Below, one piece after another: positions 22,608-46,937 of a stretch of DNA of 64,000 bases. Each line of letters opens with the position of its first letter. The first letter of the stretch is position 1. The stretch comes from an uncultured Mycoplasmatota bacterium. Lineage in GTDB: Bacteria > Bacillota_I > Bacilli_A > RF39 > UBA660. The stretch is taken from positions 62,001 through 126,000 of the forward strand of contig CAMYVW010000002.1 of the NCBI GenBank assembly GCA_947302655.1, written 5' to 3'. The translations under genes were made by a program, and so were the position numbers. The notes beneath the pieces were generated by a model that saw nothing but the letters and a program-made list of their open reading frames with translations, searched no databases and had not been told where the DNA came from.

Positions 22608-22696
22608 ATGATAAAAAATATATTGTTTTAACACCTAATAATCTTGATATAAAATGATTATTGTGGTATCATAAACCCAGAGGTTGGTGTAATACT

Positions 22697-27618: not shown

Positions 27619-28395
27619 ATGGGTAATTTAGGAAATACAATTAAAAAGTTTTTATCTAATAAAAATACAGTAACTATTTTAGGTGTAATAATTGGTGTTG
27701 TAGTTTTATACCTTGGTTATAACTATCGTGTTAAACAAGCTATAACACCAAAATCTATACCCGTTGCAAAACAAGCAATAGGTGCTAGAAGTGAAATAAC
27801 TGCTGATATGATTAAGTATGTTAATGTATCTTCTGATTTTGTTAAAAACACACCTAATTTGATAACTAGTTCATCAATGCTTATTGGTAGAAAAATAAAT
27901 GTTGGAACATCTATTCCTGCTAATGGTGTCTTTTATACTGAGCAGGTAGTAGACGCTGAAGATATGCCTGATGTTGCTTTTGCAAATATTCCTGATGGAT
28001 ATACCGTATTTAGTTTAAATGTTAATAACACACTTACATATGGTAACTCAATGTACCCTGGAAATTACATTGATTTATATCTTGAAGGTAGAGATGATTC
28101 AGGTAAACCAATTTATGGTAAATTTATTTCATCTATTGAAATAATGGATGCTAAAGATGCTACTGGTAACCATGTATTTGATGGAACTGAAAATACTGGA
28201 ACTGCTGATGTACTTTTATTTGCAGTACCAGATGATATGTATAATTTATTATATGATGCACAGTTAATTGGATTTAAAATTGTTCCGGTTCCAAGAAACT
28301 TATCTTATTCTGCAAACCCTGGTGAAACAGAAATAAGTAATGAATATTTTAGAACATTAATTAGATCTAAATCAGCTGTTATTCCTAATAATTAA
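27619..28395 (+). CDS. CpaB/RcpC-like Tad pilus assembly protein
   Basis: A 258-residue protein with one N-terminal membrane helix (VTILGVIIGVVVLYLGY), then a SAF-type beta-clip domain (IPVAKQAIGARSEITADMIKYVNV) and a CpaB tail domain (GNYIDLYLEGRDDSGKPIYGKF, TADVLLFAVPDDM). CpaB/RcpC proteins guide Tad pilus assembly at the envelope. AAGGAG precedes the ATG. It is followed by CpaF and TadB/C, the usual Tad order. Confidence 0.85.
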   Translation: MGNLGNTIKKFLSNKNTVTILGVIIGVVVLYLGYNYRVKQAITPKSIPVAKQAIGARSEITADMIKYVNVSSDFVKNTPNLITSSSMLIGRKINVGTSIPANGVFYTEQVVDAEDMPDVAFANIPDGYTVFSLNVNNTLTYGNSMYPGNYIDLYLEGRDDSGKPIYGKFISSIEIMDAKDATGNHVFDGTENTGTADVLLFAVPDDMYNLLYDAQLIGFKIVPVPRNLSYSANPGETEISNEYFRTLIRSKSAVIPNN

Positions 28396-28433
28396 TTAAA
28401 AAAAGAATAAAAAGGTAAATAGAGGTGGCTAGC

Positions 28434-29777
28434 ATGAATGATGCTATATTTTCCCAAATTGATTTTGGGCCATTAAAGGAATTTTTACAAGATGATAATG
28501 TAACTGATATTGAATATAATAATCAAGGTCAGATATATTTAAAAACTCTTGATAAAGGAGTATTTCGTGTAGAAAGACCTGAAATAAATAATCCTTTAGT
28601 AGAAAAGCTTGCTTTTCAATGTTCGAATGTAATGGGTAAGTCGTTTAATATGGCTCACCCTTTTCTTGATGCTGAATCTGCTGAGCTACGTCTTAATTTT
28701 ATCCATGAGTCAATAGCAACTAATGGTATTGCTCTTACAATACGTAAAACACCTGCTAAAATAAGACTTAATAGGGATAAATTATTAAATGAAAAATATG
28801 TAACAGAAAATCTTCTTGATTTTTTACTTACATGTGTTAAAGGTCACTGCAATATTATTGTTAGTGGTGAAACTGGTTCTGGTAAAACTGAACTTGTTAA
28901 ATATTTAGCTTCTCATACACAAGAAAATGAGAAAATAATAACTATTGAAGATACTTTAGAGCTTCACTTAGATAGAATATTTCCTCATAGAAGTATAGTT
29001 GCAATGAAAACTAATAATATTGCTGATTATGCTGATGTACTTGTTACATGTATGAGACAAAATCCAAGATGGATTTTACTATCTGAAGTACGTTCTGCTG
29101 AAGCTGTTATGTCAGTAAGAAACTCTATTTCTTCTGGTCACTGCATTTTATCAACAATACACTCAGATAGAGCAGCTAATATACCAATGCGTATGTACTC
29201 ACTACTTGAATCTAATCTAGATATTGATCAGTTCTTAAAATCAATTCATAGATATGTTCAACTTGGTATACACGTAAAAGGATATATGAGTCCTGAACTA
29301 CAGAGATTTCAACGTGAAATAGTTGAAGTATGTGAGTTTTATGTTGATGATAATAATGAAGCTAAAACTAATGTTATCTTTAGAAAAAATATTGATGGAA
29401 CAATGACTTATAATAATCCAACCAAATATTTAAGAGCTAACTTAGGAGCTCAAGGTATAATGATTAAAGATAACCTATTTGTTGAAAAGAATCAAAATGA
29501 TGAAGTATTCGATAATACGAAAGTATCATCAAATACTATAAATACTAGTGCTACCATTAATAGAAATATTAATAGTGAAGTATTAACACCTAATGTAGGT
29601 GTTAATACAAGTTCTCAAGTAAACCAACCAAGTGTTAATCCAAACCCTGTTAATAGAGTTAACATAGCTGATGCTATTAGAGCATCTCAAAATGCTTTAA
29701 ATAGTATTAATCAAAACAGTGTAGGTGTAAACAATGCTACACCTACTACTAATCAAAATGTTATAGAAGAGTTATAA
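28434..29777 (+). CDS. CpaF/TadA-type secretion ATPase
   Basis: A hexameric ATPase of the VirB11/CpaF/GspE superfamily that powers pilus assembly (447 aa). Walker A is SGETGSGKTELVKY (about residue 143); the Asp box is IITIEDTLELHLDRI, Walker B lies in RWILLSEVRSAEAV and the His box in GHCILSTIHSD. About 75 C-terminal residues are Asn/Ser/Val-rich and probably disordered, an unusual extension. ATG 28434 is chosen over the GTG at 28425 because AGAGGTGG spans the latter. Confidence 0.95.
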   Translation: MNDAIFSQIDFGPLKEFLQDDNVTDIEYNNQGQIYLKTLDKGVFRVERPEINNPLVEKLAFQCSNVMGKSFNMAHPFLDAESAELRLNFIHESIATNGIALTIRKTPAKIRLNRDKLLNEKYVTENLLDFLLTCVKGHCNIIVSGETGSGKTELVKYLASHTQENEKIITIEDTLELHLDRIFPHRSIVAMKTNNIADYADVLVTCMRQNPRWILLSEVRSAEAVMSVRNSISSGHCILSTIHSDRAANIPMRMYSLLESNLDIDQFLKSIHRYVQLGIHVKGYMSPELQRFQREIVEVCEFYVDDNNEAKTNVIFRKNIDGTMTYNNPTKYLRANLGAQGIMIKDNLFVEKNQNDEVFDNTKVSSNTINTSATINRNINSEVLTPNVGVNTSSQVNQPSVNPNPVNRVNIADAIRASQNALNSINQNSVGVNNATPTTNQNVIEEL

Positions 29778-29812: not shown

Positions 29813-30706
29813 ATGGAATTAATAATATTATTATTAATTACTATTTTCGTTATTTCTTACCGTAAAAATACAGGCGAAAATGTTTATAAGTTCTTTGCTA
29901 CACAAGTAGCGAATGCTTATAATAAATATGCTCCTTATAGTTTTAAAATGGTAAGAGAAAAAACGAAAGAGTTAGGTCAAGAATATACAGCCAAGCAGTA
30001 TGCTGGTCAAGTAGTTATCTTTGCAGCATTTGCTGGTGGTATTTCTTATATGTATTTTTATAGTATTTTATGGGCTATATTTTATGCTGTAGTAGCAATA
30101 CTATTTATTCCATATCTTGCATATCTAAGATGTAAAAGAATATATAGTGAATATGTATTTGAACAAATTCAGGTATATACTACTAACGTTATAATGGAAT
30201 TTAATACAACACAATCTTTTGTTAAATCTTTAGAGGGTGTTAGAGATTCAGGTATCTTAGAAGATCCTGTACTTTCTGATGTTAAAGTAATGATTGAAAT
30301 GAGTTATCAAAACGGATCTATTGATGATTCAATTAATTATTTTAATCAAAAATATCCATTTTATATGGTTAAAAATATGCATCAATTATTTTTACAAATA
30401 ACTAAGGAGGGTGCTAGAGATTCTGGAGAAGCTTTAGAAAATATGTCTATGGATATTGATGCCCTTGTTGAAGGTGTATATAGAGACCAAATGGATAGAA
30501 AAGATTTCCATAGAAGGTTTATTACATTTGGTTTAGTACTATTCTTACTTGTTATGGTTATGCAGTTTCTACTAGGTACTGAACACTATATATCACTAAT
30601 TGAAATATTTTATGTAAAAATTATTTTACATGCCATTATTATAATTAATAGTGCATTCTTACTTAATGGTGAGAAATACTATAATGATGATGTGGGGGTA
30701 GAGTAA
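29813..30706 (+). CDS. TadB-like inner-membrane platform protein
   Basis: A 297-residue protein with a type II secretion F (T2SF) fold. It has an N-terminal helix, a pair of helices at about residues 65-105 (VVIFAAFAGGISYMYFYS, FYAVVAILFIPYLAYL), a cytoplasmic helical bundle, and C-terminal helices (RFITFGLVLFLLVMVMQFLL). It anchors the CpaF motor and pilin polymerisation. AAAGGGG precedes the ATG. Its stop overlaps the next start (TAATG), so TadB and TadC are made together. Confidence 0.85.
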   Translation: MELIILLLITIFVISYRKNTGENVYKFFATQVANAYNKYAPYSFKMVREKTKELGQEYTAKQYAGQVVIFAAFAGGISYMYFYSILWAIFYAVVAILFIPYLAYLRCKRIYSEYVFEQIQVYTTNVIMEFNTTQSFVKSLEGVRDSGILEDPVLSDVKVMIEMSYQNGSIDDSINYFNQKYPFYMVKNMHQLFLQITKEGARDSGEALENMSMDIDALVEGVYRDQMDRKDFHRRFITFGLVLFLLVMVMQFLLGTEHYISLIEIFYVKIILHAIIIINSAFLLNGEKYYNDDVGVE

Positions 30707-31494
30707 TGTATATAGAAATATTTTTAATAGGTCTTATTGTTTTCTACGTCATGATTCAAAATGGTAATGTATCTTCAAGAAGATTCTTTGAAGATAATGA
30801 AATGTTATTTAGAAAACTAAAAGAAGATGATTGGGATTTCTTCGTTAAAGCTAAATATGGTGATAATGTAAATCCTAATACACTTTTTAATAAAAGAATT
30901 AGAAATGGTGTTTTAGTTACTGCTTTATTCTTATTCTTCTTTATAGCTAAATTAAACTATATTAGAATTATCTTTTCTGTTTTAGCAGGAGTAGTTGTAT
31001 TTAAGTTAGATTATTTAAATATTAAGAAGTATTATAAAGTTCATTTAGATGAAATAGATGCAATGCTTCCGCATTATTTAAAAGGTTTAGAAATATTAAT
31101 ACAACACTATACAGTACCTGTTGCAATGGGTAAATCAATGAATGATGCTCCTCCTATATTTAAAGAAGGATTACAGCAATTAGTTAATGAGATTAATGCA
31201 GGTAATGATTCAATTAATCCTTATATGGATTTTGCAAAGATGTATCCAGTTAGAGATTCCATGAGAATGATGAGACTACTTTATCGTTTATCACTAGGAA
31301 GACAAGAAAGAAAACAAGAACAACTATTAGCTTTTTCTAGATCTATTTCATCACTACAACAAAAAGCAAGAGATACAAAATATAGAAATAGACTTGAAAA
31401 GATGGAAGGTAAAACAATGCATATGCTTGTATCTACTGGTGTAGGTGTTATGATTTTACTTGTTCTTGCAGTAATTCAAATGATGAATATTTAA
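30706..31494 (+). CDS. TadC-like inner-membrane platform protein
   Basis: A 262-residue partner of TadB. It has an N-terminal helix (IEIFLIGLIVFYVMI), a helix pair near residues 65-100 (VLVTALFLFFFIAKL, IIFSVLAGVVVF), a cytoplasmic bundle (LDEIDAMLPHYLKGLEILIQ, a TadB/C-type motif) and a final membrane helix (LVSTGVGVMILLVLAVIQ). Transcription ends at a strong hairpin directly after the stop, closing the CpaB-CpaF-TadB-TadC unit. Confidence 0.85.
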   Translation: MYIEIFLIGLIVFYVMIQNGNVSSRRFFEDNEMLFRKLKEDDWDFFVKAKYGDNVNPNTLFNKRIRNGVLVTALFLFFFIAKLNYIRIIFSVLAGVVVFKLDYLNIKKYYKVHLDEIDAMLPHYLKGLEILIQHYTVPVAMGKSMNDAPPIFKEGLQQLVNEINAGNDSINPYMDFAKMYPVRDSMRMMRLLYRLSLGRQERKQEQLLAFSRSISSLQQKARDTKYRNRLEKMEGKTMHMLVSTGVGVMILLVLAVIQMMNI

Positions 31495-31594: not shown

Positions 31595-32494
31595 ATGACA
31601 GATTTAATAACTAAAGAAAATATAAATATAGAAAATAAAATATATAATATAAGAGGAAAACAAGTAATGCTAGATAGTGATCTAGCATTACTATACCAAG
31701 TTGAAACTAAAAGAATAAATGAAGCAGTAAAAAATAATCCTTCTAAATTTCCAAACAGATTTTGCTTTTACATAAATGAAAAAGAATATAATAACTTGAG
31801 GTCGAAACTTTCGACCTCAAGTATTGAGAATAATTATGGTGGAAGACGATATAAACCTAGAGTTTTTACAGAACAAGGTGTATATATGCTTGCTACAATA
31901 CTTAAATCTAGTGTAGCCACTGAAGTAAGCATTAAAATAATGGATGCCTTTGTTTCTATGAGACACTATATTAGTGATAGTGAACTAAGACTATTAAATG
32001 TTGAATCTAAAGTATTAAGTCATGATAATGACATTGTGCTCTTAAACGAATCTTTTAACAGACTTAACAGTAATATAAAACTTACTGGTATATATTATAA
32101 AGGTCAAATATATGAAGCATACTCAGCTTTAGTAGATATACTAAAAACATCTACTAAAAAACTAATTATCATAGATAACTATGTAGATAAAACTATACTT
32201 GATATCTTAACTAAAATAGATAATAAGATTAAAATAGTAATTATCTGTAATAAAGAAACAACATATCTTAAAGATATAGATATAAATAAATATAATGAAG
32301 AATTTAATAATTTAAATTTAGTATTTAATAAAGATTTTCATGATAGATTCATTATTATAGATAATAAAGATATATATCACTGTGGATCAAGTATTAATAG
32401 AATAGGTTATAAAACTTTTGCAATAAATAAACTTAATGATAAAGTTGTAATTAGCTCATTTATTAAATATATTACTGAATTGATAAAAAAATAA
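31595..32494 (+). CDS. ORF6N-domain protein
   Basis: A 299-residue protein. The N-terminal ORF6N domain is clear: IYNIRGKQVMLDSDLALLYQVETKRINEAVKNN, PSKFPNRFCF, then RYKPRVFTEQGVYMLATILKS and VSIKIMDAFVSMRHYI. The C-terminal half resembles the DNA-damage or PLD-like end seen in this family (DFHDRFIIIDNKDIYHCGSS). ORF6N is typical of phage antirepressors and chromosomal accessory genes. It has its own ribosome site (AAAGGAG), promoter and preceding terminator, and separates the tadC gene from the pilin genes. A perfect 29-bp palindrome lies in its coding sequence. Confidence 0.85.
   Translation: MTDLITKENINIENKIYNIRGKQVMLDSDLALLYQVETKRINEAVKNNPSKFPNRFCFYINEKEYNNLRSKLSTSSIENNYGGRRYKPRVFTEQGVYMLATILKSSVATEVSIKIMDAFVSMRHYISDSELRLLNVESKVLSHDNDIVLLNESFNRLNSNIKLTGIYYKGQIYEAYSALVDILKTSTKKLIIIDNYVDKTILDILTKIDNKIKIVIICNKETTYLKDIDINKYNEEFNNLNLVFNKDFHDRFIIIDNKDIYHCGSSINRIGYKTFAINKLNDKVVISSFIKYITELIKK
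31794..31822. repeat. Perfect 29-bp palindrome inside the ORF6N coding region
   Basis: Left arm ACTTGAGGTCGAAA (31794-31807) and right arm TTTCGACCTCAAGT (31809-31822) flank a single C. It falls in the linker between the two halves of the ORF6N domain and encodes part of LRSKLSTSS. Its GC content is far above the surrounding sequence. Confidence 0.9.
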
Positions 32495-32608: not shown

Positions 32609-32857
32609 ATGAAAGAAGCTACTGGAGAATTAAATATGACAGTTATTACTGTAGTTGCTATTGCAGCAGTTGGTGCATTTTTCTACGCTTTTATTTGGCC
32701 TAGAGTAAAATCCAATATTTCTAAATCAACTGAATGTGCAAATGCAGTATGTCAATCATGCAGTGTTCAAGGAAATAGTAGAGTTTGTACAGGATGTACT
32801 TCATCTGATGGTGAAGAAATTAAAGGAAACTGTACTTATAAGGATACTGAAAACTAA
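32609..32857 (+). CDS. Small pilin-like protein A (82 aa)
   Basis: The N terminus MKEATGELN is followed by one hydrophobic helix (MTVITVVAIAAVGAFFYAFIWP) and a short Cys-rich tail with six cysteines (CANAVCQSC...). The sequence is paralogous to the next gene. A six-residue leader ending in Gly before the helix recalls prepilins, and the position in a Tad locus fits, so it may be the Flp-like pilin. AAGGAGG precedes the ATG. Confidence 0.75.
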   Translation: MKEATGELNMTVITVVAIAAVGAFFYAFIWPRVKSNISKSTECANAVCQSCSVQGNSRVCTGCTSSDGEEIKGNCTYKDTEN

Positions 32858-32890: not shown

Positions 32891-33148
32891 GTGAAAGAGG
32901 CGACAGGTGAACTAAATGCAACTGTAGTTGTAGTTTTAACGATAGGACTCCTGTCGACTTTTTTCTTTACTATAATTTGGCCTAGACTTAAAAATAATTT
33001 AAATGCTAATACAAAATGCTCTGATGCTATTTGTAAAGTTACTAAGGATGGTTTGCAAGAAGTATGTACAGAGTGGAAGAATAATGTATGTTTAAAAATT
33101 AAATGTACATATGATAATAAGGACATAATATGTCCTTATAAGGGTTAG
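32891..33148 (+). CDS. Small pilin-like protein B (85 aa)
   Basis: Paralogue of the previous protein: MKEATGELNATVVVVLTIGLLSTFFFTIIWPRLKNN, then a tail with six cysteines. It starts at a GTG 10 nt after AAGGGG. A 9-bp hairpin (33119-33137) forms at its 3' end. It is probably a second subunit of the same filament or an accessory pilin. Confidence 0.75.
   Translation: MKEATGELNATVVVVLTIGLLSTFFFTIIWPRLKNNLNANTKCSDAICKVTKDGLQEVCTEWKNNVCLKIKCTYDNKDIICPYKG
33119..33137 (+). repeat. Inverted repeat at the 3' end of pilin-like gene B
   Basis: AAGGACATA and TATGTCCTT are perfect arms around one A. There is no T tract, so this is more likely an mRNA-stabilising or processing hairpin than a terminator. 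Confidence 0.6.
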
Positions 33149-33164: not shown

Positions 33165-33641
33165 ATGAGAGAGGCAATAGGTGGTACTTGGTTATTTCAA
33201 ATTGTTATTGTTTTTGTATTCTTATTTACTGGCTATGTATGTCTTTCAATAAATCATTCTAAGGCTTTTGCAGTTAAAGATGATATTATTGAAACTATTG
33301 AAAGATATAATGGTATTGATTTAGATAGCGTTACAAAAACAGATGATAATAACGATAATCCATGCATAAATGCAATTACTGAAAGACTTAAAACTGTTTC
33401 TTATAGAACAGGAGGTAATTGTGCTAAACTTGGTAGTGAATGGGTTGGATTTAATAGACTTGGTGGAAGAAATGATAATAATGCAACATACTGCATAAAA
33501 AAAGAAGTTGTATCTGGTGGTGGAGAATTACCTAAGATAGCTTATTATAAAATAGCAGTCTTTTATCAATTAGATCTACCAGTACTTAATAACTTTTTAT
33601 CATTTAAAGTTGTAGGAGATACTAAACTTATTTATGAATAA
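33165..33641 (+). CDS. Pseudopilin-like protein C (158 aa)
   Basis: Begins MREAIGGTWLF, then a hydrophobic helix (QIVIVFVFLFTGYVCLSI), a predicted amphipathic extension and a soluble domain of about 120 residues containing four cysteines. It is paralogous to the next gene (M-R-[EQ]-A-I-G-x-T-W start). The size and layout resemble TadE/TadF minor pseudopilins. The ribosome site is weak (GGTG). Confidence 0.75.
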   Translation: MREAIGGTWLFQIVIVFVFLFTGYVCLSINHSKAFAVKDDIIETIERYNGIDLDSVTKTDDNNDNPCINAITERLKTVSYRTGGNCAKLGSEWVGFNRLGGRNDNNATYCIKKEVVSGGGELPKIAYYKIAVFYQLDLPVLNNFLSFKVVGDTKLIYE

Positions 33642-33683: not shown

Positions 33684-34223
33684 ATGAGACAAGCAATTGG
33701 TACAACGTGGATTTATCAATTAGTTATAATATTTATTTTGATATTTGTTAGTTTCCTTATTTTAACACTTACTTACTCTAAATCTTATAAAACTAAAAAT
33801 GAAATAATAAATATTATTGAAAAACATGAAGGTATTAATGATACTAGTGTAGCTGTTATAAATAATTATTTATATCAATCTGGTTATAGGTATACTCATA
33901 AATGTCCTAATCCAGAAACATCACCTGAATGGTTAGGTGCTGATAGTTTAGAAACAAATAAATTAGAAGCTGTAGAAAAAGGGAAGAAATATTACTACTG
34001 CATAAGAAGACACTTAAATAGTCAAGAAATTAAAGGTAGTAGAGCTGCTTCTAATCGAGGTTTAACAAAGTATTATGAGATCCAAATATTTTTTAAATTT
34101 AATTTACCAATAATTGAAAATGTTGGTACATTTACAACTAATGGTACTACTAATGATATGTTTAGAACAAATAATGATATATTTGATAAGATATTTTACT
34201 CTAAGAAGAAGGGAAGTAATTAA
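33684..34223 (+). CDS. Pseudopilin-like protein D (179 aa)
   Basis: Paralogue of the preceding protein: MRQAIGTTWIYQLVIIFILIFVSFLILTLTYSKSYKTKNEIINIIEKHEGI. The short pre-helix leader, membrane helix and the motif SK[AS][YF]..K..II..IE are shared by both. The extracytoplasmic domain differs. AGGGAG precedes the ATG by about 12 nt. Probably a minor pilin or tip component. Confidence 0.75.
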   Translation: MRQAIGTTWIYQLVIIFILIFVSFLILTLTYSKSYKTKNEIINIIEKHEGINDTSVAVINNYLYQSGYRYTHKCPNPETSPEWLGADSLETNKLEAVEKGKKYYYCIRRHLNSQEIKGSRAASNRGLTKYYEIQIFFKFNLPIIENVGTFTTNGTTNDMFRTNNDIFDKIFYSKKKGSN

Positions 34224-34225
34224 TC

Positions 34226-35224
34226 GTGAATGTAATAGTTAGTAATAAAAATAAAGAAGTTCTTGCTAATTTAGATATAGATTTAATTAAAAGTATTGAT
34301 GGAGAGTTTACTCCAGAAGAAATTGCTGCGCAATTTCCTCCTAACTTTTACTTTAATAAAATGGTTTTAGATATAACTGCTGTTAAAGGTTATGAAAAGA
34401 TTAATATTATTCAAGAATTATCACTTTTAATGGATATGAGTAAAGTTGTACTTTTCTTAAATGATTCAACGATTGTTAATTCACCAACTTACTTATCTCA
34501 GCTTGTATCAATGGGTATATACAACTTTACTAAATCAATAGATGCTGTTAAGTTTTTAATTGATAATCCTAATACATATAAAGATGTAGCAAGTTATCAT
34601 CAACTTAATAATGTTTCTTCATCTCCAGATATTAAATCTGGTGATATATCTGGTGATGTTGAAGATACAAGACTTAGAGTTATTGGATTTAAAAATGTTA
34701 CGGCAGGAGCTGGATCATCAACACTTGTTTATATGCTTAAAAAACAACTTGAGAAACAATATGCTACAATGGCTGTTGAAGTAAATAAAAACGATTTTAT
34801 TTACTTAAATGATAGATCACTTCAATCAACAACTGATTTAGCATCATTTGTTAATAATAATCAAAAAGTTGAAGTTATTTTAGTTGATTTAAATGATTTT
34901 GATGGTGAAGAAATATGTACTGATGTAATTTATTTAATTGAACCTGGTTTAATTAAATTAAATAAATTAATCAGAAAAGATAATATGATTTTTGATAAAT
35001 TGAAAGCTAAAAAAATTGTTTTAAATCGAAGTATTTTGAATAGTAAAGATGTATCTGATTTTGAATCTGAAAGTAATAGTAAAATATTTTTCAATATTCC
35101 AAATTTAGATGATAAAAAAGATTATCAAAAAGTCTTAGAAGACTTCTTGATAGAACTTGATTTTAAGAGATTTAAACCAACAACTGGTGGAAAAGCCAAG
35201 AATATTTTTAATATATTTAAGTAA
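34226..35224 (+). CDS. TadZ/CpaE-like MinD-family protein with degenerate P-loop
   Basis: A 332-residue protein. The N-terminal 120 residues look like an atypical receiver domain (MNVIVSNKNKEVLANLD, ...KVVLFLNDSTIVNSPTYLSQLVSMGIYNFTKS), as in TadZ. The ATPase half has VIGFKNVTAGAGSSTLVYMLKKQL (about residue 150) where MinD-like proteins have KGGxGKT, so the signature Lys residues are absent. KVEVILVDLNDFDG is the switch II-like strand. TadZ directs polar assembly of Tad pili. It has a GTG start after AAGGGAAG and follows pseudopilin D by 2 bp. Confidence 0.75.
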   Translation: MNVIVSNKNKEVLANLDIDLIKSIDGEFTPEEIAAQFPPNFYFNKMVLDITAVKGYEKINIIQELSLLMDMSKVVLFLNDSTIVNSPTYLSQLVSMGIYNFTKSIDAVKFLIDNPNTYKDVASYHQLNNVSSSPDIKSGDISGDVEDTRLRVIGFKNVTAGAGSSTLVYMLKKQLEKQYATMAVEVNKNDFIYLNDRSLQSTTDLASFVNNNQKVEVILVDLNDFDGEEICTDVIYLIEPGLIKLNKLIRKDNMIFDKLKAKKIVLNRSILNSKDVSDFESESNSKIFFNIPNLDDKKDYQKVLEDFLIELDFKRFKPTTGGKAKNIFNIFK

Positions 35225-35267: not shown

Positions 35268-35296
35268 TTGACTTTATCGACTATGTTATGTAAAAT
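35268..35296 (+). promoter_or_regulatory. Promoter of the VirB2-like pilin gene
   Basis: TTGACT (35268-35273) and TAAAAT (35291-35296) are separated by 17 bp, 29 nt before the ATG at 35325. An upstream imperfect hairpin (TAACATGTAAAT with ATTTACACGTTA, 35230-35263) may end the preceding transcript. Confidence 0.75.
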
Positions 35297-35324: not shown

Positions 35325-35678
35325 ATGTTTTTAGCAGAATTTTGTAATGACTCAGCTGAAGTAATGAATTTCTTACACACAGTATTAGTAATTTTTAGAA
35401 TTATTGTTCCAGTACTATTAATTATTTTTGGTATGGTAGATTTAGGAAAGGCAGTTGTTTCTTCTGATGAAAAAGCTATTAGTAAATCAACTGGTGCTTT
35501 AATTAAGAAATTAATTGCAGCTTTATTTATTTTCTTCTTACCAACAATTATAAGTGCAATTGTTAACTTAACTGACGAACAAGATGACGCTGGTCACACA
35601 ATTGGTTCATCTAAATGTATTAAATGTATTATGTCAGGTAACCAAGGTGACGAAAATAATTGTACTAAAGTAGGATAA
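35325..35678 (+). CDS. VirB2/TrbC-like pilin (117 aa)
   Basis: Two membrane helices (ILVIFRIIVPVLLIIFGMVDLGKAV-type and LIKKLIAALFIFFLPTIISAIV) are joined by a short loop (SSDEKAISKST), followed by a tail with two CxxC-type cysteines. This is the classic layout of VirB2/TrbC conjugative pilins. AAAGGAG precedes ATG 35325; an upstream in-frame ATG at 35268 lies inside the promoter. Its own promoter and terminator suggest much higher expression than its neighbours, fitting a major subunit. Confidence 0.82.
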   Translation: MFLAEFCNDSAEVMNFLHTVLVIFRIIVPVLLIIFGMVDLGKAVVSSDEKAISKSTGALIKKLIAALFIFFLPTIISAIVNLTDEQDDAGHTIGSSKCIKCIMSGNQGDENNCTKVG

Positions 35679-35700
35679 TAATTTTATAGTATAATTTGTT

Positions 35701-35731
35701 AAAACTAACAATGAAAATTGTTGGTTTTTTT
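35701..35731 (+). terminator. Terminator after the VirB2-like gene
   Basis: ACTAACAAT pairs with ATTGTTGGT (one G-T wobble) around GAAA, followed by seven T's. Confidence 0.75.
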
Positions 35732-35779
35732 CTTTTATTTTTAATGTTTATTTGTTATAATTTAATAAGGTGGGATATT

Positions 35780-37072
35780 ATGAAAAAAACTTTATTAATT
35801 CTTGTCTGTTTGTTTTCATTTTTAATGTTTAAATACAATGCTTATGCCGCATTTACTTTTGATTGTGACTATTTTTTAACCAGTTATGAATCAGTATCAA
35901 AATCTGGAGCATTAACTCCAGAAGCAAAGCAAAAACTTGAGGCTGTTAAATACGCTTGTAATAATCCTACAGTTAAAGCTTGTGCTGAAAATTCTGTTAC
36001 TAGTTCTTGTCATAATAGTTGCCTTATATCACTTGGCTCAATTGATCCGATTAGTCAAGAATGTATTTCATGTGTTGCAAATACGTGTATGACAGCTCAA
36101 GATAGTAGCGCATTTAATAGTATATTTGTTAGTGGAGCTGCTGCAGGTATTGGTTATTTAAATGGAAATATTGAACCATCAACTCAGAATGATAATCCTA
36201 ATTATGAAGTTTGTAAAAACTTTTTAAATTCATATCCTTTAGTTCAAAGCTATGATGATGGAACTGTTGTTGAGAGCATTTGCAGTGACCCAGAAACTTT
36301 TTCCTGTCTTCAAACTACAGTTACTGATAAGTGTTCTGATTCTTGCTCTTCATATATGACAGATCCTAGTTGTTTAACATGTTTATCTGATAAGTGTTTA
36401 AATCATGAACAAAGGCAAGCAATACAGGATGCTACTACACAAGCACAGACTCCCGATAATATATGTGTACCTAGTACAGGAGAGAATTGCGATAGATGTA
36501 CTGAAGCACAGCGTGGTATTTGTATAAAAATGTGTATGACTTATCATGCTGTAACATCTGCGGAATGTTACACTCAATGTGTTACTGACGGAAATGTCGA
36601 TCCTGACAAGTTGACTTTTGAATCAACAGAATGTAGGGATTGTTTACATGAATACTGTAACTATCCTGAAGTTCTTAATTCTGAATATACTTATAATGAT
36701 CCTGAAGTTGACTTAAGCACAGGATGGGATTTCTGCGAAAAACATGGCGTTCTTGTTTCAATGAGAATTTTTAGTAGAGCAATATCTGTTGCTAGGATAT
36801 TTGTTCCAATACTATTAATTATATTTGGAATAATTGAATTATCAAAAGCTGTTCTTTCGTCTGATGATAAAGCAATTAGCAATGCAACAAGCTCTTTAAT
36901 TAAAAAATTAATTATAGGATTATTGGTATTCTTTATTCCTACAATTGTTGATTCCATTTTTAATGCTGTTGATGATTACACTAATTTAAACGATAATGGA
37001 TGTTATACATGTTTCTTTGATAGAGAAAAAGAAGATTGTGACAATTTGATTAATAACTCAAATGATGATTAA
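35780..37072 (+). CDS. Cys-rich ectodomain fused to a VirB2-like module (430 aa)
   Basis: A signal peptide (MKKTLLILVCLFSFLMFKYNAYA) is followed by about 300 extracytoplasmic residues with repeated Cys-rich units (CHNSCLISLGSI, CISCVANTC, CSDSCSSYMTDPSCLTCLSDKC, CYTQC, CRDCLHEYC). The C terminus repeats the VirB2-like two-helix unit, ARIFVPILLIIFGIIELSKAVLSSDDKAISNATSSLIKKLI, nearly identical in pattern to the separate VirB2 protein. ATG 35780 follows AAGGTGG and starts the signal peptide. A pilin-base or tip adaptor is one possible role. Confidence 0.8.
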   Translation: MKKTLLILVCLFSFLMFKYNAYAAFTFDCDYFLTSYESVSKSGALTPEAKQKLEAVKYACNNPTVKACAENSVTSSCHNSCLISLGSIDPISQECISCVANTCMTAQDSSAFNSIFVSGAAAGIGYLNGNIEPSTQNDNPNYEVCKNFLNSYPLVQSYDDGTVVESICSDPETFSCLQTTVTDKCSDSCSSYMTDPSCLTCLSDKCLNHEQRQAIQDATTQAQTPDNICVPSTGENCDRCTEAQRGICIKMCMTYHAVTSAECYTQCVTDGNVDPDKLTFESTECRDCLHEYCNYPEVLNSEYTYNDPEVDLSTGWDFCEKHGVLVSMRIFSRAISVARIFVPILLIIFGIIELSKAVLSSDDKAISNATSSLIKKLIIGLLVFFIPTIVDSIFNAVDDYTNLNDNGCYTCFFDREKEDCDNLINNSNDD

Positions 37073-37102
37073 AAATAATTAACATAATGGAGGTGAGATT
37101 CA

Positions 37103-38578
37103 GTGAATAAATTGAAATATTTTGTGTTAACTTTTGCTCTTTTTACATTTTGTATGTTTAATGTAAAAGCTTTTACTGCATCTACAGATTATGATTTTAA
37201 AATAAAAGGAGTTCAATTTCCTCAAAATGTTAAGGCATCTTTAAAAAATCCTTCGGGAATTTTTAAAGTAATTGGCGATAAAATAGAACTTTATCCTTTA
37301 TGTAAATATAAGTTTATAGGTACTGTTGCTTGTGTTAATTCAAGCCTTGATGATGTTGATATATCAGATAAAGATGCTCAATGTATATATGCTCACTATT
37401 ATGATGCATATAAAAATGATAATGCTGCATATATAGTTTTAGCAGACACTGGTAATTCGTATGTTTTAGTTGACAGTGGAAATTACAGTTTAAATGAGCA
37501 ATCTGGTACTTATATTATTTCCTCAAAGGATTCATTTAATAATTTAAAAAAAGGTGTTGAGGAGTTCCAGGGTGGAGATTCTGAAGCTATAAGTAATTAT
37601 AAGAAGTATGGATGGTGTCCTGATTCTATAACTGTTAATCCTGGTAGTGATAATGACAAAGATCATGCTGATTACGATGGTTATATTTACTTTGATAATG
37701 GTGCCAAGCAAAAGTTTTATGGACGTGCTGTTTATGATACATGGCAAAGAGATATCTGTCCTAATTTGTCATGCTTTAAAAAGGAATCTGATGGAAGAAT
37801 TAGATATACTGGTGCATATTCTCATGTTAATGATATATTCCAAAGTATATATTATTTTGATAAATCTAATTCAATGGATGCCTTTTCAAAAGAAGATAAA
37901 GAATATACAGATAGTTTAATATACGATCTTGAACATTTAAGTTCAGATACAAGTTTTTGTGACTTTTCTAGCACTAATAATAAATCTTATACAAATATGA
38001 TAAAAATTCTTGACTACATAGCATATTTAAGAAAGTTAAGAAGGGAAAATCTAGATGCTGTTAGTTCAATAGATGATTTATTACAAAATAATAATTATGT
38101 TAGCAAATCTGATAATGGTGGTACATCTCTTGTAGATGCAATTGTTCAGAATTTAGCTCCTGGAACTACTTGTTATTCTTCTGAATTTGCTAGTCAAGAT
38201 AATAGTTTAAAATATGAACAATTATATGATAAGGCAAAGTCAATTAAAGATGGTTCAAAATTTGACCCAAATCAAAATACAGTTGATACTTGTGAGAAAC
38301 TTTTAGGGTCTCCAGATAATAAAGAAGATGTTGCCTATTATATTCAAACAATACTTAATTTTGTTAAAATATTAGGACCAATATTAATAATAGCTTTGTC
38401 TATATATGATTACGTTAAAGCAATACCTTCTGGTGATAGGGATGCTATTAATAAAGTTAATAAAAAAACAATAATTAGAGTGGTTGCAGGTGTATTTATA
38501 TTCTTTGCACCAATTCTTATAAAATCATTATTTACCTTATTAGGTATATATAGTGATAGTGATTGTAATATTGGATAG
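37103..38578 (+). CDS. Large ectodomain fused to a VirB2-like module (491 aa)
   Basis: Signal peptide (MNKLKYFVLTFALFTFCMFNVKA), then an extracytoplasmic region of about 370 residues, then a third VirB2-like unit: ILNFVKILGPILIIALSIYDYVKAIPSGDRDAINKVNKKTIIRVVAGVFIFFAPILIKSLF. Relative to the separate VirB2-like protein the linker reads SGDRDAINKVNKK. It has a GTG start with GGAGGTGAG upstream. It is encoded directly before the VirB6-like protein. Confidence 0.8.
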   Translation: MNKLKYFVLTFALFTFCMFNVKAFTASTDYDFKIKGVQFPQNVKASLKNPSGIFKVIGDKIELYPLCKYKFIGTVACVNSSLDDVDISDKDAQCIYAHYYDAYKNDNAAYIVLADTGNSYVLVDSGNYSLNEQSGTYIISSKDSFNNLKKGVEEFQGGDSEAISNYKKYGWCPDSITVNPGSDNDKDHADYDGYIYFDNGAKQKFYGRAVYDTWQRDICPNLSCFKKESDGRIRYTGAYSHVNDIFQSIYYFDKSNSMDAFSKEDKEYTDSLIYDLEHLSSDTSFCDFSSTNNKSYTNMIKILDYIAYLRKLRRENLDAVSSIDDLLQNNNYVSKSDNGGTSLVDAIVQNLAPGTTCYSSEFASQDNSLKYEQLYDKAKSIKDGSKFDPNQNTVDTCEKLLGSPDNKEDVAYYIQTILNFVKILGPILIIALSIYDYVKAIPSGDRDAINKVNKKTIIRVVAGVFIFFAPILIKSLFTLLGIYSDSDCNIG

Positions 38579-38595
38579 AAAGGATTGATATTTCG

Positions 38596-41427
38596 ATGTT
38601 GATAGGAATAAGCCCTAGTCAGTTAATTAATCAAGCTTGGAATAACATAGGTTTTTACCTTGATAGAGCTATATATGGTTTAATATCATTTTTGTATAAT
38701 TTATTCCATAGTATAGCTAGTGTTAGATTACTTAACTCAACAATGATGGATGATTTAAAGAATAGAATGTACCTAATAATTGGTGTAATATCACTATTTA
38801 TTATCATTTACTCTTTATTACAAGTTATTATCAATCCTGATAAAAGTTCATCAGGTGAGTACTCAACAACAAAAATTATATTTAACCTTGTAAAAGCTAC
38901 AATTTTAATTCTTATTGTTCCCACATTATTTTCATTTGCTTTTAAGTTTCAAGCATCTGTAATGAATAAAAACTTCATAGTTAGACTTGTTACAGGTAGA
39001 TATAGTGATGATGGGAATGCTGGTGCACAATTTACTGTTCCGGTGTTTGAAGGTTTCTTTTATCTAAATGAACTTGGTAAGCAAACTCCGATGGCCGAAG
39101 AAATGTATCAATTGGCTGAAGAAGGAGCTTATGTTGATAATACCATAGAAGGTTTTATTTATTTCTTTAATGATGATCACGACCTTGAAGATAAAGGTGG
39201 TTATGTTTATGATGGTGATGAAAAGACTATATCATATAAGTTTCCATTTTCATCAATTGCTGGATGTTTTGTAGCATATGTTTTATTAATTTATTGCTTT
39301 GATATTGCTGTAAGGGCTGTTAAACTTTCTTTTTTAGAAGTAGTTTCACCTTTTCCGATACTAATATCTATAATGCCAAAACAAGATAAAATATTTAACA
39401 GTTGGTTAAAGTCTACTCTTAAAACTTATTTTGAGTTGTTCTTAAGAATATTTGTTTTGAGTTTAGGTACATATTTGATTTCTAGGTTACCTGATATTTT
39501 GGATACCATGAAAATTGAAGGCAATATGTTTTTCTTAACAAAAGCATTTATTATTTTAGGTATCGTAATGTTTATTAGAAAAGCTCCTAAACTTATTAGT
39601 GAAATCTTTGGTATTGATATGAAGAATGCTAATATGAGCTTAAGAGATAGATTGAGAGATAGTGGATTAACTGCATTAGCTGGTGGTGCTGCTGCTGGTT
39701 TTGTTTATGCAAATTCAACTAGAAAGGCAATTGAAGATCGAAAAGATATTGGACGATGGGGCAAATTTTGGAGATCTTCACTTAGAGGAAATCCTTTATC
39801 TGCAATTGCACATGGATCTAAGTTAGGTTTTGTTGAAGGATGGCGTAACGGAACTTTAAAAGGTATTGGTGCTGCAAGTAATGATGCCATTTATCGTGAA
39901 AGGGCGTATGCTCGAGGAGCTAACTGGTTTACAACAACTGGTGAATTGTTGCGTGATGATCTTGGATTTATGACTTACTATAAGAGAAAGAGTATTGGAT
40001 CTGAAATTAGTGAAGGTTCACAACTTCGTGTAATTGATAAATCTCTTCGTGAAACTCAAGCTAAATATGGAGAATTTACGAGAGAACAAGAAAAAAAATA
40101 TGGATTTGATGAAAAGAAAAGAGCTAATGAACGTGCAATATCTAAGTATGATAGCATGAAGCAAAAAGCTGAAGATCAAGTTGGAAAACAAACATCAAAA
40201 ACTGTTGCATCAGTTAGAGCATTTTCTGCATCAAAGGAAAAACTTGATACATTAACATTTGATATGTCTAGAGATGCTAATGGTAATATGTCTCTTATGA
40301 AGTCAACCACTAAAAAGATGGATGCCGATGAGATGAGAAAACAACTTGTTAAGTTGGATGAAGCAAATGCTAATGGTCTTGTTAGTTCAAGTGATTATTC
40401 AAGTTTAAGAAATTATTATGAAAAACGTATAAATGCCTATGATAATCAAGGATATAAGCTTTCTGCTGGTTATGTAAATATGAATGGCGTTCAAATAGAT
40501 GCAGAAATGAAGCGATTAGACCAGGCTCTTGCAAGTAAAGCAATAACTCCAGAGCAACATAAAGAATATACAGATTATTATATTTCCAAGAAAAAAGGTC
40601 TTGCTAAACAAAATACATCTGATGCAATTCTATATGAAACTCAATTAAGAAACTTTAGTAATCAAGGTCAAGTTTTAGATTATATTGGTACTGATTATAA
40701 TTCATGTAACGAAGGATTTAAAGAATATGCTACAAAATATTGCTTTGAAGACTATAAAGAAGCTAATTTTGAAGCCTATAAAGAACAATGGATTAAAGAT
40801 CATCCAGATGAGAACCCTGAATATGCTGATGGCGATTTTGACAAACAATATCAAGATAAATTTAGATTTGTTACTCATAAAGATATGTCTGATGCAATAA
40901 CAGGAACTATGTTTGATGGTTCTAGTAGAGATGCTAAGTTTGATATTGGTAGAACTAATAATTTATCAGAACTTGCATATCAAGTTGCTTTATATAGAGA
41001 AGAAGCTCGTGATGATTCTGTTAACCTTGTTTATAACAATCCTAATCAAAATCATGATGGTTCTGCTACAAAACATGAAGTTACAGGTGTTAATAGTATG
41101 TTTGGAGAAGACATCTTTAAAGGTAAAGATCATTTAGTTAATACTAATCAAGTTATTGATCGTGTTAAAGCAAGAGTTTATTCTCAACCAGCTGAATTTA
41201 ATATTCCTAAACAACTTCAAGGGGTTTATGGTAAGGTTGAAAATATGGATGAAGCTGGACGTTATATCGAAGTTCTTAAAAATGAGAAGAAATCTATCAT
41301 TGATAATAGTAGTCTAGAACGTGACTTACTTAAAGAAATATCTGCAAATGAGGAAGCTGTTGATAATATAAAGAAGACTAGAGGTCAATATGGTCTTTTC
41401 AGAGCTAGACATGGCAATAAGAAATAA
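38596..41427 (+). CDS. VirB6/TrbL-like channel protein with long cytoplasmic tail (943 aa)
   Basis: The N-terminal 340 residues hold about six to seven membrane helices (YGLISFLYNLF, MYLIIGVISLFIIIYSLLQV, ILILIVPTLFSFAF, AGCFVAYVLLIYCFDIAVRAVKL, FELFLRIFVLSLGTYLI, AFIILGIVMFI), with VVSPFPILISIMP near residue 255, as in Gram-positive TrbL/VirB6 proteins. About 600 C-terminal residues are soluble, Lys/Glu-rich and partly coiled coil. VirB6 proteins form the inner-membrane conduit of T4SSs. AAAGGA precedes the ATG. Confidence 0.8.
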   Translation: MLIGISPSQLINQAWNNIGFYLDRAIYGLISFLYNLFHSIASVRLLNSTMMDDLKNRMYLIIGVISLFIIIYSLLQVIINPDKSSSGEYSTTKIIFNLVKATILILIVPTLFSFAFKFQASVMNKNFIVRLVTGRYSDDGNAGAQFTVPVFEGFFYLNELGKQTPMAEEMYQLAEEGAYVDNTIEGFIYFFNDDHDLEDKGGYVYDGDEKTISYKFPFSSIAGCFVAYVLLIYCFDIAVRAVKLSFLEVVSPFPILISIMPKQDKIFNSWLKSTLKTYFELFLRIFVLSLGTYLISRLPDILDTMKIEGNMFFLTKAFIILGIVMFIRKAPKLISEIFGIDMKNANMSLRDRLRDSGLTALAGGAAAGFVYANSTRKAIEDRKDIGRWGKFWRSSLRGNPLSAIAHGSKLGFVEGWRNGTLKGIGAASNDAIYRERAYARGANWFTTTGELLRDDLGFMTYYKRKSIGSEISEGSQLRVIDKSLRETQAKYGEFTREQEKKYGFDEKKRANERAISKYDSMKQKAEDQVGKQTSKTVASVRAFSASKEKLDTLTFDMSRDANGNMSLMKSTTKKMDADEMRKQLVKLDEANANGLVSSSDYSSLRNYYEKRINAYDNQGYKLSAGYVNMNGVQIDAEMKRLDQALASKAITPEQHKEYTDYYISKKKGLAKQNTSDAILYETQLRNFSNQGQVLDYIGTDYNSCNEGFKEYATKYCFEDYKEANFEAYKEQWIKDHPDENPEYADGDFDKQYQDKFRFVTHKDMSDAITGTMFDGSSRDAKFDIGRTNNLSELAYQVALYREEARDDSVNLVYNNPNQNHDGSATKHEVTGVNSMFGEDIFKGKDHLVNTNQVIDRVKARVYSQPAEFNIPKQLQGVYGKVENMDEAGRYIEVLKNEKKSIIDNSSLERDLLKEISANEEAVDNIKKTRGQYGLFRARHGNKK

Positions 41428-41442
41428 AAAGGGTGAGATGTT

Positions 41443-41769
41443 ATGAAAGAAGATAGTTATTTAATTCCGGCCAATTCAAAAAAGTCGATGTTAATATTTG
41501 GATTCTTTACTAAAATTGATTTAATCATCGCAGGAGTGGGACTTTTATTTACACTCCTGATGATGATATTAGTTCAAGGTCCTAATTTTATACAAATGGT
41601 AATGATTGTTTTACCACTACTTATAAGTGCCTTTTTGGTTATGCCGGTACCTTATTACCATAATGTTTTACAATTGATTTTAAACATTTATAATTTCATT
41701 TTTGTTAATCAAAAATCATATAGATGGAAAGGATGGTCGACTAGTGAGTATGACGAAGAAAGTAAATAA
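41443..41769 (+). CDS. PrgI/VirB3-like T4SS membrane protein (108 aa)
   Basis: Two membrane helices (LIIAGVGLLFTLLMMILVQ and MIVLPLLISAFLVMPVPYY) are preceded by a short cytoplasmic N terminus (SYLIPANSKKSMLIFGFFTKID). This is the layout of PrgI/TcpE/VirB3 proteins, which partner VirB4. It lies directly before virB4, as in conjugation systems, and overlaps it by 26 bp. GGGTGAG precedes the ATG. Confidence 0.78.
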   Translation: MKEDSYLIPANSKKSMLIFGFFTKIDLIIAGVGLLFTLLMMILVQGPNFIQMVMIVLPLLISAFLVMPVPYYHNVLQLILNIYNFIFVNQKSYRWKGWSTSEYDEESK

Positions 41770-42304
41770 ATTTACTGAAGATTGGTTACCTATTAAAAGT
41801 ATATCTAATGGATGTATTTTAACAGATAACAATGAATATGTAACAGGTGTTAAAGTTAATCCAAAAAATATATTTATTCTTGATAAAGCTGATCAAGATA
41901 GAGTTATATTTGGTTTAAATAATTTCTATAACACAATCGACTTTGAGTTTTGGCTTGTTATAGCTGATAGACCAGTAGATCTTAGTATATACTTAGCTGA
42001 ATTACAAATTCAGTATAATAATAATAAAGGTATTGATCCTCAGAATCGTAAACTTATTGTTGAAGATATTAATAAAGCTAATATGTTTATGGGTAAAGAT
42101 TATAACGTAGTTGATACTGAGTATTATATTTTATTTAAAGAAAAGAATGTTGAAGTTGTTAAAAAACGCCTTCGTAATTTAGTTATGGGATTAGCTAATG
42201 TAGGTTTATCATCACTTCAGGTAACAAATGACGATTTAAGAATGCTTTTGGATAACTTCTTAAATGGTGGTTTAAGAACTAACTTTGGAATGGTGGTGTC
42301 ATAA
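41744..42304 (+). CDS. VirB4 N-terminal domain, encoded as a separate protein (186 aa)
   Basis: Starts at GTG 41744 after AAAGGATGG (ATG 41750 is an alternative). The protein begins with the TraC/VirB4-type N terminus (EDWLPIKSISNGCILTDNNEYVTGVKVNPKNI) and contains no P-loop. It stops with TAATG, where the remaining VirB4 begins in another frame. Together the two proteins have the length of a normal VirB4 (about 780 aa). See the next entry. Confidence 0.75.
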   Translation: MSMTKKVNKFTEDWLPIKSISNGCILTDNNEYVTGVKVNPKNIFILDKADQDRVIFGLNNFYNTIDFEFWLVIADRPVDLSIYLAELQIQYNNNKGIDPQNRKLIVEDINKANMFMGKDYNVVDTEYYILFKEKNVEVVKKRLRNLVMGLANVGLSSLQVTNDDLRMLLDNFLNGGLRTNFGMVVS

Positions 42305-44088
42305 TGCTTTTTAAATCTGAAGTAGCTCCTAAAGGAATTCAATTTAAAACTAGTGAATTTATTATTAGTGGAAAATACTGCACTATTATGACAGTTATAT
42401 CTTATCCAAAGTCAATAGGTCTTGGATACTTATCAAGTATTAATGCTATACCTGGTGTTAAAGCTGTTATTAAACATATTCCAATTGCTTTTTCATCAAT
42501 GCAAAAAATGATTAATAAAGAAATTGTTGATTTAAAACAAAGATATCAAAATGAAAAAGATAAAACGATGCAAGAAAGTTATAGAATAGATATTGACTCT
42601 ATGGAAGAGTTTGTATCTATGCTTGCATCTACGCAATCTAAAACATTTGATTTCCAACTTCATTTACTTCTTTCAGCTGATTCTGAAGAAGAGTTAATGA
42701 ATTTGAAATTACAAGTTAGAAATTATTTAGATTCTCTTGGTTTAAGAGCTGTTGCTTTAATGTTTGAACAAGAGAAAGTATTAAAGTCAATTATTCCAAT
42801 ATTCCCTAAACAAGATATTGAAAACAGAATTGGTATTCCAATTCCAACACCAACACTTGCAGCGATGTATCCATTCGTATTTGACTGTGTTAAAGACCCA
42901 GGATTATCTACACTTCTTGGAGTAGATTTCTCTGGTGGTGTTGTTCTATTTAACCAATTCTTATATCAAATTAAGAAAGAAAATAATCGTAATAATGCTA
43001 ATATGATTATCTTAGGTACATCTGGTTCAGGTAAATCTACTGCAGCTAAGTTACTTGTTAGAAATCATATTAGAAATCAAAACCAAGTTATATGTATTGA
43101 CCCTGAAGGTGAACTTGAGGATATGGCAGCTAACTTTGGTGGAGACTACATAAGTTTAGGTAAAGGTGGAGATTTTGGATTAATAAATCCACTTGAAATA
43201 GTACCTGATTATGATGGTGAAGAGGAAAGTACTGAACTTTCTCACTCAATCTTAACTAAATCTTTACAAGAGATTAAAGCTTTCTTAAAGTATTTATATC
43301 CACAAATCGAGGATTCTGTACTTGCTATGTTTAGTGAAGTACTTCAAGATACTTATAAAAGATATAAAATAGATTTTGATACTGATTTTACTAAATTAAA
43401 ATCAGAAGACTATCCTACATTTGACGATGTATACGCTACTATTAAAGGAAGACTTTTATCAATGACAGAAGCTACTCAAGAACGTAGCATTATGGAAAAA
43501 CTAGAACTTAATATTAGACCTCTTACAAGAGAACTTAGATACTTCTTTACAGGTCATACTTCAATTGAAATTGATAGTGACTTTGTTGTATTTAACATTA
43601 AAGAATTAATGAACTCTGATGAAAACGTAAAGAATGCTTCATTCTTCAACATTTTAAAATATGCTTGGGGTTTATGTTTAGATAAATCTGTAAATACTGT
43701 ATTAATGGTTGATGAAGCTCACGTTCTACTTTCAAGTCGTAATGAACTAGGTGCTGAATTCTTAGCACAAGTTCAAAGAAGAAGTAGAAAGTATAATTCT
43801 GGAACTATTATTATTACTCAACAACCAACAGATTTTGCTGCTCCTAATATCATTACTCATGGTAAAGCAATATTTGATAATGCTTCATATTACTTAGTAA
43901 TGGGATTAAGAAAACAAGCAATAGAAGATTTAGCAAAACTAATTGATTTAAATGAAAGTGAACAAGAAGGTATTAAATTCTTTGATCAAGGAGAAGCTTT
44001 ATTCGTTTGCGGTAACAGACGAATGAGAATATCTGTTATTGTTACACATGAAGAACTTGAATCATTTGGTTCTGGTGGAGGACTATAA
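42304..44088 (+). CDS. VirB4-type ATPase, C-terminal portion (594 aa)
   Basis: Main T4SS ATPase. The N-terminal part continues the VirB4 CagE-like domain, with Walker A LGTSGSGKSTAAKLL (about residue 237), VICIDPEGELEDMA, Walker B TVLMVDEAHVLL (about residue 465) and TIIITQQPTDF (about residue 507). The start overlaps the stop of the preceding gene (TAATG), so translation is coupled. No obvious ribosome site of its own. Either a natural two-subunit VirB4 or an assembly or sequencing frameshift. Confidence 0.88.
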   Translation: MLFKSEVAPKGIQFKTSEFIISGKYCTIMTVISYPKSIGLGYLSSINAIPGVKAVIKHIPIAFSSMQKMINKEIVDLKQRYQNEKDKTMQESYRIDIDSMEEFVSMLASTQSKTFDFQLHLLLSADSEEELMNLKLQVRNYLDSLGLRAVALMFEQEKVLKSIIPIFPKQDIENRIGIPIPTPTLAAMYPFVFDCVKDPGLSTLLGVDFSGGVVLFNQFLYQIKKENNRNNANMIILGTSGSGKSTAAKLLVRNHIRNQNQVICIDPEGELEDMAANFGGDYISLGKGGDFGLINPLEIVPDYDGEEESTELSHSILTKSLQEIKAFLKYLYPQIEDSVLAMFSEVLQDTYKRYKIDFDTDFTKLKSEDYPTFDDVYATIKGRLLSMTEATQERSIMEKLELNIRPLTRELRYFFTGHTSIEIDSDFVVFNIKELMNSDENVKNASFFNILKYAWGLCLDKSVNTVLMVDEAHVLLSSRNELGAEFLAQVQRRSRKYNSGTIIITQQPTDFAAPNIITHGKAIFDNASYYLVMGLRKQAIEDLAKLIDLNESEQEGIKFFDQGEALFVCGNRRMRISVIVTHEELESFGSGGGL

Positions 44089-46895: not shown

Positions 46896-46937
46896 TAAAT
46901 ATTAAAATGTTTATATAAATATTTGGAGGAGTTAGTC

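Follow-up and report, generated by a model that had tools for sequence, protein, structure and literature searches.

VirB2-like pilin modules fused to secreted ectodomains in a chromosomal T4SS–Tad locus of an RF39 bacterium suggest a machine for pilus assembly and secretion that has specialised subunits of its own

Three consecutive, co-directional genes of an uncultured Mycoplasmatota bacterium, here called A, B and C, end in one and the same VirB2-like two-helix module, which in B and C is fused to an ectodomain preceded by a signal peptide. The trio lies inside a chromosomal locus in which no relaxase of the two families sought was found and which combines Tad-like motor genes with the genes of a monoderm type IV secretion system (T4SS). 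The reading we favour, and consider probable, is that of a non-conjugative T4SS with a Tad-like motor, in which A is the main pilin and B and C are minor subunits that bear ectodomains. The analysis was made on a stretch of 64,000 nucleotides (the window), in which the sizes and coordinates of the three genes, and the richness of B in cysteine, are as an earlier, sequence-only reading of this DNA had given them:

35325–35678, forward strand: A, a plain VirB2-like pilin of 117 aa (start ATG) with an N-terminal Cys, a two-helix hairpin and a CxxC...C tail
35780–37072, forward strand: B, 430 aa with 31 Cys (start ATG); signal peptide, Cys-rich ectodomain and C-terminal pilin module with a CxxC tail
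37103–38578, forward strand: C, 491 aa (start GTG); signal peptide, ectodomain of ~395 aa; the pilin module at its C terminus is of the VirB6-adjacent class and ends in the short tail DSDCNIG

The C-terminal modules of A, B and C align over a gap-free core, with local BLOSUM62 scores of 211 (A–B), 128 (A–C) and 107 (B–C); in 2000 shuffles per pair, which kept the hydrophobic/polar pattern, the observed score was never reached (z = 10.7, 9.2 and 5.1, respectively), and under a stricter four-class shuffle it was reached in 0, 0 and 1 of 2000. The common unit at the end of all three proteins is thereby borne out, and a chance likeness through hydrophobicity, the objection raised when the unit was proposed, is ruled out by the pattern-preserving shuffles. 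A profile of 84 module sequences, among whose rows are the modules of A, B and C themselves, finds all three in the organism's own genome (E 2e-27, 4e-27 and 5e-24), and by protein search these are just the three copies in the 1.04-Mb assembly, which is 94% complete. The loop of the hairpin, for which an SSDxKAIS-type motif had been claimed throughout, reads SSDEKAIS in A and SSDDKAIS in B; the claim fails for C, where it is SGDRDAIN, and the C module is of a different subclass from those of A and B.

AF2 predicts two long helices for A (2–46 and 49–88; mean pLDDT 79, core 87–91) and a confident module for C (pLDDT ~90, the ectodomain mostly <50); both models contain a two-helix hairpin with a short charged loop, as in VirB2/T4SS_pilin. 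The Pfam family T4SS_pilin (PF18895) is matched by 40 of the 84 family modules at E ≤ 0.01 (best 6.9e-8), A and C of the window scoring 19 and 16.3 bits, which is below the cut-off of 26.6 bits. These matches, together with the neighbourhood of virB6, virB3 and virB4, support the earlier description of the module as VirB2-like. A Foldseek comparison of A with solved VirB2 pilins returned no significant match (best E 1.7, a plain generic helical hairpin, a shape that is uninformative), and no PDB sequence was matched by the module profile.

The genes around the trio, all on the forward strand, were assigned as follows:

27180–27590, forward strand: DUF5411 protein (PF17424, 1.8e-60)
27619–28395, forward strand: CpaB/RcpC-like protein (RcpC 0.011, below cut-off)
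28425–29777, forward strand: TadA/CpaF secretion ATPase (T2SSE 2.3e-28)
29813–30706, forward strand: TadB-like membrane protein, from its place after TadA and its conservation; no informative Pfam match
30706–31494, forward strand: TadC-like membrane protein, from position and conservation; no Pfam match
32609–32857 and 32891–33148, forward strand: two small Flp-like prepilins
33165–33641 and 33684–34223, forward strand: two TadE/F-like minor prepilins
34226–35224, forward strand: TadZ-like protein directly before pilin A, with homologues in 32 loci; named by position, no Pfam match
38596–41427, forward strand: VirB6-like polytopic protein of 943 aa, by family profile; homologues in 75 loci
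41443–41769, forward strand: VirB3-like protein of 108 aa; weak TcpE match, homologues directly before virB4N in 94 loci
41702–42304, forward strand: N-terminal part of VirB4 as a gene of its own
42304–44088, forward strand: ATPase part of VirB4 (P-loop_TraG 5.8e-15, AAA_10 1.3e-13, CagE_TrbE_VirB 0.013)
44175–46142, forward strand: CwlT/VirB1-like wall hydrolase with a membrane helix and an NlpC/P60 domain (NLPC_P60 1.9e-4, 21.8 bits, just below the 23-bit cut-off)
46155–46895, forward strand: conserved membrane-anchored, lipoprotein-like T4SS accessory protein; homologues in 34 loci
46923–49364, forward strand: VirD4/TraG coupling ATPase (T4SS-DNA_transf 3.8e-54)

The MPF-FATA gene set VirB4, VirB3, VirB6, VirB1-like and VirD4 is thus wholly contained in the window, VirB3 and VirB6 being recognised by family profile (a strict one for the VirB6 homologues) and position, with weak Pfam matches. 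In the Tad set TadA is clear, CpaB is weak, and TadB, TadC and TadZ are assigned by position and conservation only. The DUF5411 protein occurs in 24 of 25 family genomes and in none above cut-off outside the family; a prepilin peptidase (PF01478, E 1.1e-12) is encoded elsewhere in the genome (G000:C1:480912). A frameshift error behind the split of VirB4 was considered and rejected, because the N-terminal part is a separate gene, split identically, in 95 of 95 loci. The relaxase families PF03432 and PF02486 are absent from the organism's own genome (a MAG, 94% complete) and from nearly all family genomes, and the locus is flanked by leuS, tyrS, tRNAs and other housekeeping genes.

Relatives were sampled as 20 loci from family genomes and 80 that a VirB4 query located in named MAGs; the latter include Candidatus Coprovivens, a genus placed in the order RF39 (PMC8035907). 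One locus, L054, matches a region of a same-genus genome. At E ≤ 1e-5 the module profile detects its target in 50 of 54 family genomes and in 0 of 341 others of the class, and a phylum-wide draw yielded only two weak matches outside the family; a look for the trio in related genomes had been proposed, and the architecture is family-wide. Gene order is likewise kept across the family (TadZ, pilin(s), VirB6, VirB3, VirB4N, VirB4C, VirD4), and in 35 of 49 loci a rhodanese-like gene is found in the 6 kb after VirD4 (DedA in 19, RmuC in 19), from which we take the locus to be an inherited part of the chromosome. Neither viral contigs, queried with VirB4, nor plasmids, queried with pilin A, contained relatives. 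In some genomes the Tad genes are separated from the T4SS genes (L038/L039, L040/L041), and the two halves are, for that reason, possibly two machines. The TadA labels in L063 and L073 proved wrong, the gene in question encoding a GspE/PilT-like ATPase beside an orphan VirB3–VirB4 cassette in the mur/fts cluster; L056, L057 and L062 bear TadA labels of the same kind. The hybrid with a Tad-like motor, the lineage-wide fusions and the two module classes described below go beyond what had been noticed in the sequence-only reading.

The 77 loci sampled for this count contain 223 complete module genes, of which 91 encode the module by itself, 125 add an N-terminal ectodomain of >120 aa and 8 a C-terminal one; up to eight module genes occur per locus, and some sampled loci are without any fused copy. 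Both ends of the hairpin accept domains, as in L074 with its C-terminal M23 domain, which is as expected if both ends face outside. In 217 of the 223 modules the hairpin is closely preceded by one Cys and followed by another. A module gene stands directly before virB6 in 70 of 75 cases, and the modules in this position end in a short, single-Cys tail (CxxC in 2/69); the CxxC...C tail is found in 124 of the 154 modules that do not adjoin virB6. A tree of 154 modules, built from few columns and with many weak forks, splits by position, with 14 changes where shuffles need 43: A and B lie next to each other within a supported set of 74 rows, all but two of them (72) from modules that do not adjoin virB6, and C groups by path with the virB6-adjacent modules. 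As far as tails, positions and phylogeny tell, there are two ancient classes of module, one CxxC-tailed (A, B) and one VirB6-adjacent with a short Cys tail (C).

In relatives the domains fused to the module are in part recognisable. Pfam identifies Amidase_3, NlpC/P60, Peptidase_C39_2, Peptidase_M15_4 (3.8e-24), a VgrG3-like lysozyme domain and Peptidase_M23 (1.2e-24), and the catalytic motifs are present in the hydrolase-fused module proteins that were checked. When wall hydrolases are grouped by iterated profiles, which makes the group labels approximate (the "M15" of L120 is C39 by Pfam), none of 30 N-fused proteins is CxxC-tailed versus 58 of 97 others (Fisher p 3e-10, a value inflated by near relatives), and all 30 fall into the VirB6-adjacent class to which C belongs; a recognised hydrolase fusion is present in only 16 sampled loci. 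In the ectodomains of B and C in the window no enzyme or fold was recognised (that of B has no Pfam match), and neither has a homologue in any fetched locus; for C, a fold search was empty and AF2 with 34 VirB6-adjacent homologues gave no confident ectodomain fold. That of B consists in part of three repeats of a seven-Cys pattern. VirB6-adjacent ectodomains are 11–65% identical even where VirB4C is 95–98% identical; at the level of sequence the ectodomains are hypervariable.

Expression signals are found on either side of A:

35268–35296, forward strand: sigma70-type promoter (TTGACT-17-TAAAAT) dedicated to pilin A, 28 nt upstream of the start codon
35701–35732, forward strand: terminator-like hairpin with T-run between A and B (−11.5 kcal/mol, z −4.2, 0/200 shuffles as stable)

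Of 27 pilin genes next to TadZ, 22 have an equivalent near-consensus promoter, where base-shuffled regions lead one to expect 0.16, and the remaining genes of the locus seldom have one; similar hairpin signals follow 12 of 26 TadZ-adjacent pilins versus 5 of 69 virB6-adjacent genes. A separate scan for G+C-rich terminators did not list the A–B hairpin. Because of the promoter, owned by the pilin in so many loci, and of the hairpin before B in the window, the major pilin would seem to be A, with B and C as minor subunits. The suggestion that the fused proteins are specialised base, tip or adhesin subunits fares well to this extent, and for the C class the base suits better than the tip, since this class goes together with VirB6 and some relatives have wall hydrolases as its ectodomains.

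For topology, stoichiometry, docking at VirB6, incorporation into a filament, the role of C in the window and cooperation between Tad and T4SS parts, we infer the following arrangement. The locus would encode one chromosomal, non-conjugative envelope machine, a monoderm T4SS with a VirB2-like pilus or channel that is assembled next to a Tad-like pilus motor and probably with its help. A would be the abundant pilin; B and C would be subunits of low abundance, and in them the two-helix pilin unit, both ends of which would lie outside the cell, brings a secreted ectodomain into the assembly. CxxC-tailed modules such as that of B may present fast-changing, Cys-rich domains, likely surface binders; VirB6-adjacent modules such as that of C may sit at the VirB6 base, with domains acting in or through the peptidoglycan, a role that appears overt in relatives that have an enzyme of the amidase, NlpC/P60, M15, lysozyme-like or C39 kind as ectodomain.

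The proposed copolymerisation of B and C with the pilin has a rival reading. The module of B and C might be a membrane and T4SS docking anchor and nothing else, the two proteins staying at the channel, as adhesins or for wall remodelling of VirB1 type, and never joining a filament, of which an extended form may not exist. Known Gram-positive VirB1 homologues are anchored in the membrane and have their enzymes outside the cell (PMC12857230); the C class adjoins VirB6, hydrolases belong in the wall, and as many modules as some loci encode would crowd a helical filament. Still, the fusions are accompanied by a plain pilin that has a strong promoter to itself, B stands next to A in the tree, and it is always the pilin module that is used where any helix could anchor, so that we regard an anchor without further function as somewhat unlikely. 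Very unlikely, in our estimate, is that B and C are pilus-tip adhesins in a VirB5-like role, their association with VirB6 being incidental: the divergence of ectodomains beside near-identical VirB4C is as expected of target-binding tips, and B is Cys-rich and repetitive, but the C class is bound to VirB6 by position and phylogeny alike and bears wall hydrolases in a subset of relatives.

A different origin altogether, a degraded conjugative element (ICE) lodged in the chromosome with fused reading frames of no special role, could be argued from VirB4 and VirD4, which are of the conjugative kind, from the remote similarity (<30% identity) to plasmid VirB4 and from the related plan that occurs on a plasmid (see below). 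It is disfavoured to the point of being hardly credible, as the module is present almost throughout the family, reading frames are intact across it, the same rhodanese-like, DedA and RmuC genes recur nearby, the flanks are housekeeping genes and both relaxase families are absent.

Among known systems, the T4SS of Patescibacteria (Saccharimonadia) with its pilin arrays is the nearest case in the descriptions drawn on here (PMC12102498; PMC12857230). These, too, are small-genome monoderms with chromosomal VirB4, VirB3, VirB6 and VirD4, mostly without relaxase, with tandem arrays of 2–11 divergent VirB2-like pilin genes and with type IV pili as well; in one species the T4SS is essential for epibiotic growth. 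The same descriptions mention no fusion to ectodomains or wall hydrolases, whereas the modules of the RF39-type family are mostly fused; further, the VirB4 of the family is split and its T4SS genes adjoin Tad genes. Systems of MPF-FATA/MPF-FA (pCF10, pIP501, Tn916 type) share VirB4, VirB3, VirB6, VirD4 and a membrane-anchored VirB1-like hydrolase, but are said to lack a VirB2 major pilin (PMC12102498), while the locus studied here has several VirB2-like pilins and neither of the two relaxase families, and the wall enzymes of relatives are anchored by the pilin module. The Tad side resembles Tad loci including the CpaF-PilC-DUF5411 operon predicted in Roseburia, Ruminococcus and Eubacterium (TadA/CpaF ATPase, TadB/C-like, CpaB-like and TadZ-like proteins, Flp-like prepilins, DUF5411); that operon as described reports no T4SS genes (PMC9523054), whereas in the window the Tad-like genes run straight into VirB2-VirB6-VirB3-VirB4. 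A distant parallel is found on the 98-kb plasmid CP074574.1 of Mycoplasmatota bacterium zrk4 from a cold seep, which encodes a plain T4SS_pilin-like protein, a module-ended protein of 781 aa, VirB6, VirB3, a split VirB4, CpaB, TadZ, CpaF, TadB, TadC and Flp; the end of the 781-aa protein matches the plain pilin-like protein of the same plasmid (blastp 2e-8) and T4SS_pilin (1.2e-3). It differs in being on a plasmid, in having one fusion only, in its remote sequence and in the reversed order of the Tad and T4SS blocks. This parallel implies that the plan is older than the RF39-type family or has spread between lineages. We judge the machine to be a VirB2-type T4SS in a new variant form.

That T4SSs of Gram-positive (monoderm) bacteria build pili is called an "intriguing possibility", prompted by Patescibacteria, in the review PMC12857230. 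In the Bacilli lineage considered here, a VirB2-like pilin has a promoter to itself and the pilin unit serves as a carrier of ectodomains, whose cargo in relatives includes domains of six kinds, wall-acting or of C39 type; one modular scheme would join the assembly of a pilus to passage through the wall and the recognition of surfaces. De novo synthesis of nucleotides is, according to PMC13155120, missing in RF39 bacteria, and a lifestyle that depends on contact would therefore be plausible. The furthest extension, unlikely when taken as a whole, is a mixed VirB2-type filament of minor pilins with peptidoglycan hydrolases and variable binders, driven jointly by Tad and T4SS motors, with which nucleotide-auxotrophic gut Bacilli breach neighbours or hosts and take up molecules. 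At the least, the pilin module may be regarded as a natural anchor for the display of domains at a T4SS, and the locus gives a tangible starting point for asking how gut bacteria that are uncultured and have small genomes may make contact with their neighbours or their host.

In the window, VirB4 is encoded by two overlapping genes, one for the N-terminal part (41702-42304) and one for the ATPase part (42304-44088), a division found in all 95 of the 95 loci examined; VirB4 of plasmid CP074574.1 is likewise split in two genes. On this cold-seep Mycoplasmatota plasmid (sampled as loci L142 and L149) T4SS and Tad genes are linked, and it encodes a 781-aa fusion of the VirB2-like two-helix pilin module. 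Elsewhere, VirB3 and the N-terminal and ATPase genes of VirB4, in that order, form an orphan cassette without pilin or VirB6; in two related loci (L063, L073) it adjoins a GspE/PilT-like ATPase and murG/murB/ftsQ-type genes, and it is also reported for L056, L057 and L062.

Module fusions occur in a further related locus (L129:1778-3148 and L129:632-1756), with ectodomains that are esterase-like and lytic-enzyme-like by eye and match no Pfam family. Three further features of the window are:

16247-19711 (+), 1154-aa protein with an N-terminal type IV prepilin signal, KKGFTLIEILASIAILAVVILL, then a very large ectodomain
22661-27162 (+), two secreted proteins of 257 and 1243 aa, with the DUF5411 gene directly downstream
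31595-32494 (+), phage antirepressor-type protein by appearance, between the TadC-like and Flp-like genes

The 1154-aa protein is a second pilin-type fusion, of a pilin family different from the VirB2-like module. The 1243-aa protein is Cys-rich and resembles surface proteins; a homologue is absent from the sampled loci. The antirepressor-like frame is rare among relatives (3 loci).

The pilin-module profile weakly matched the N-terminal region of VirB6 (38596-41427; hhalign probability 62%, E 7e-5), as against probabilities below 2% for the other membrane proteins of the locus. This match hints at a VirB2-like hairpin that VirB6 may itself contain.
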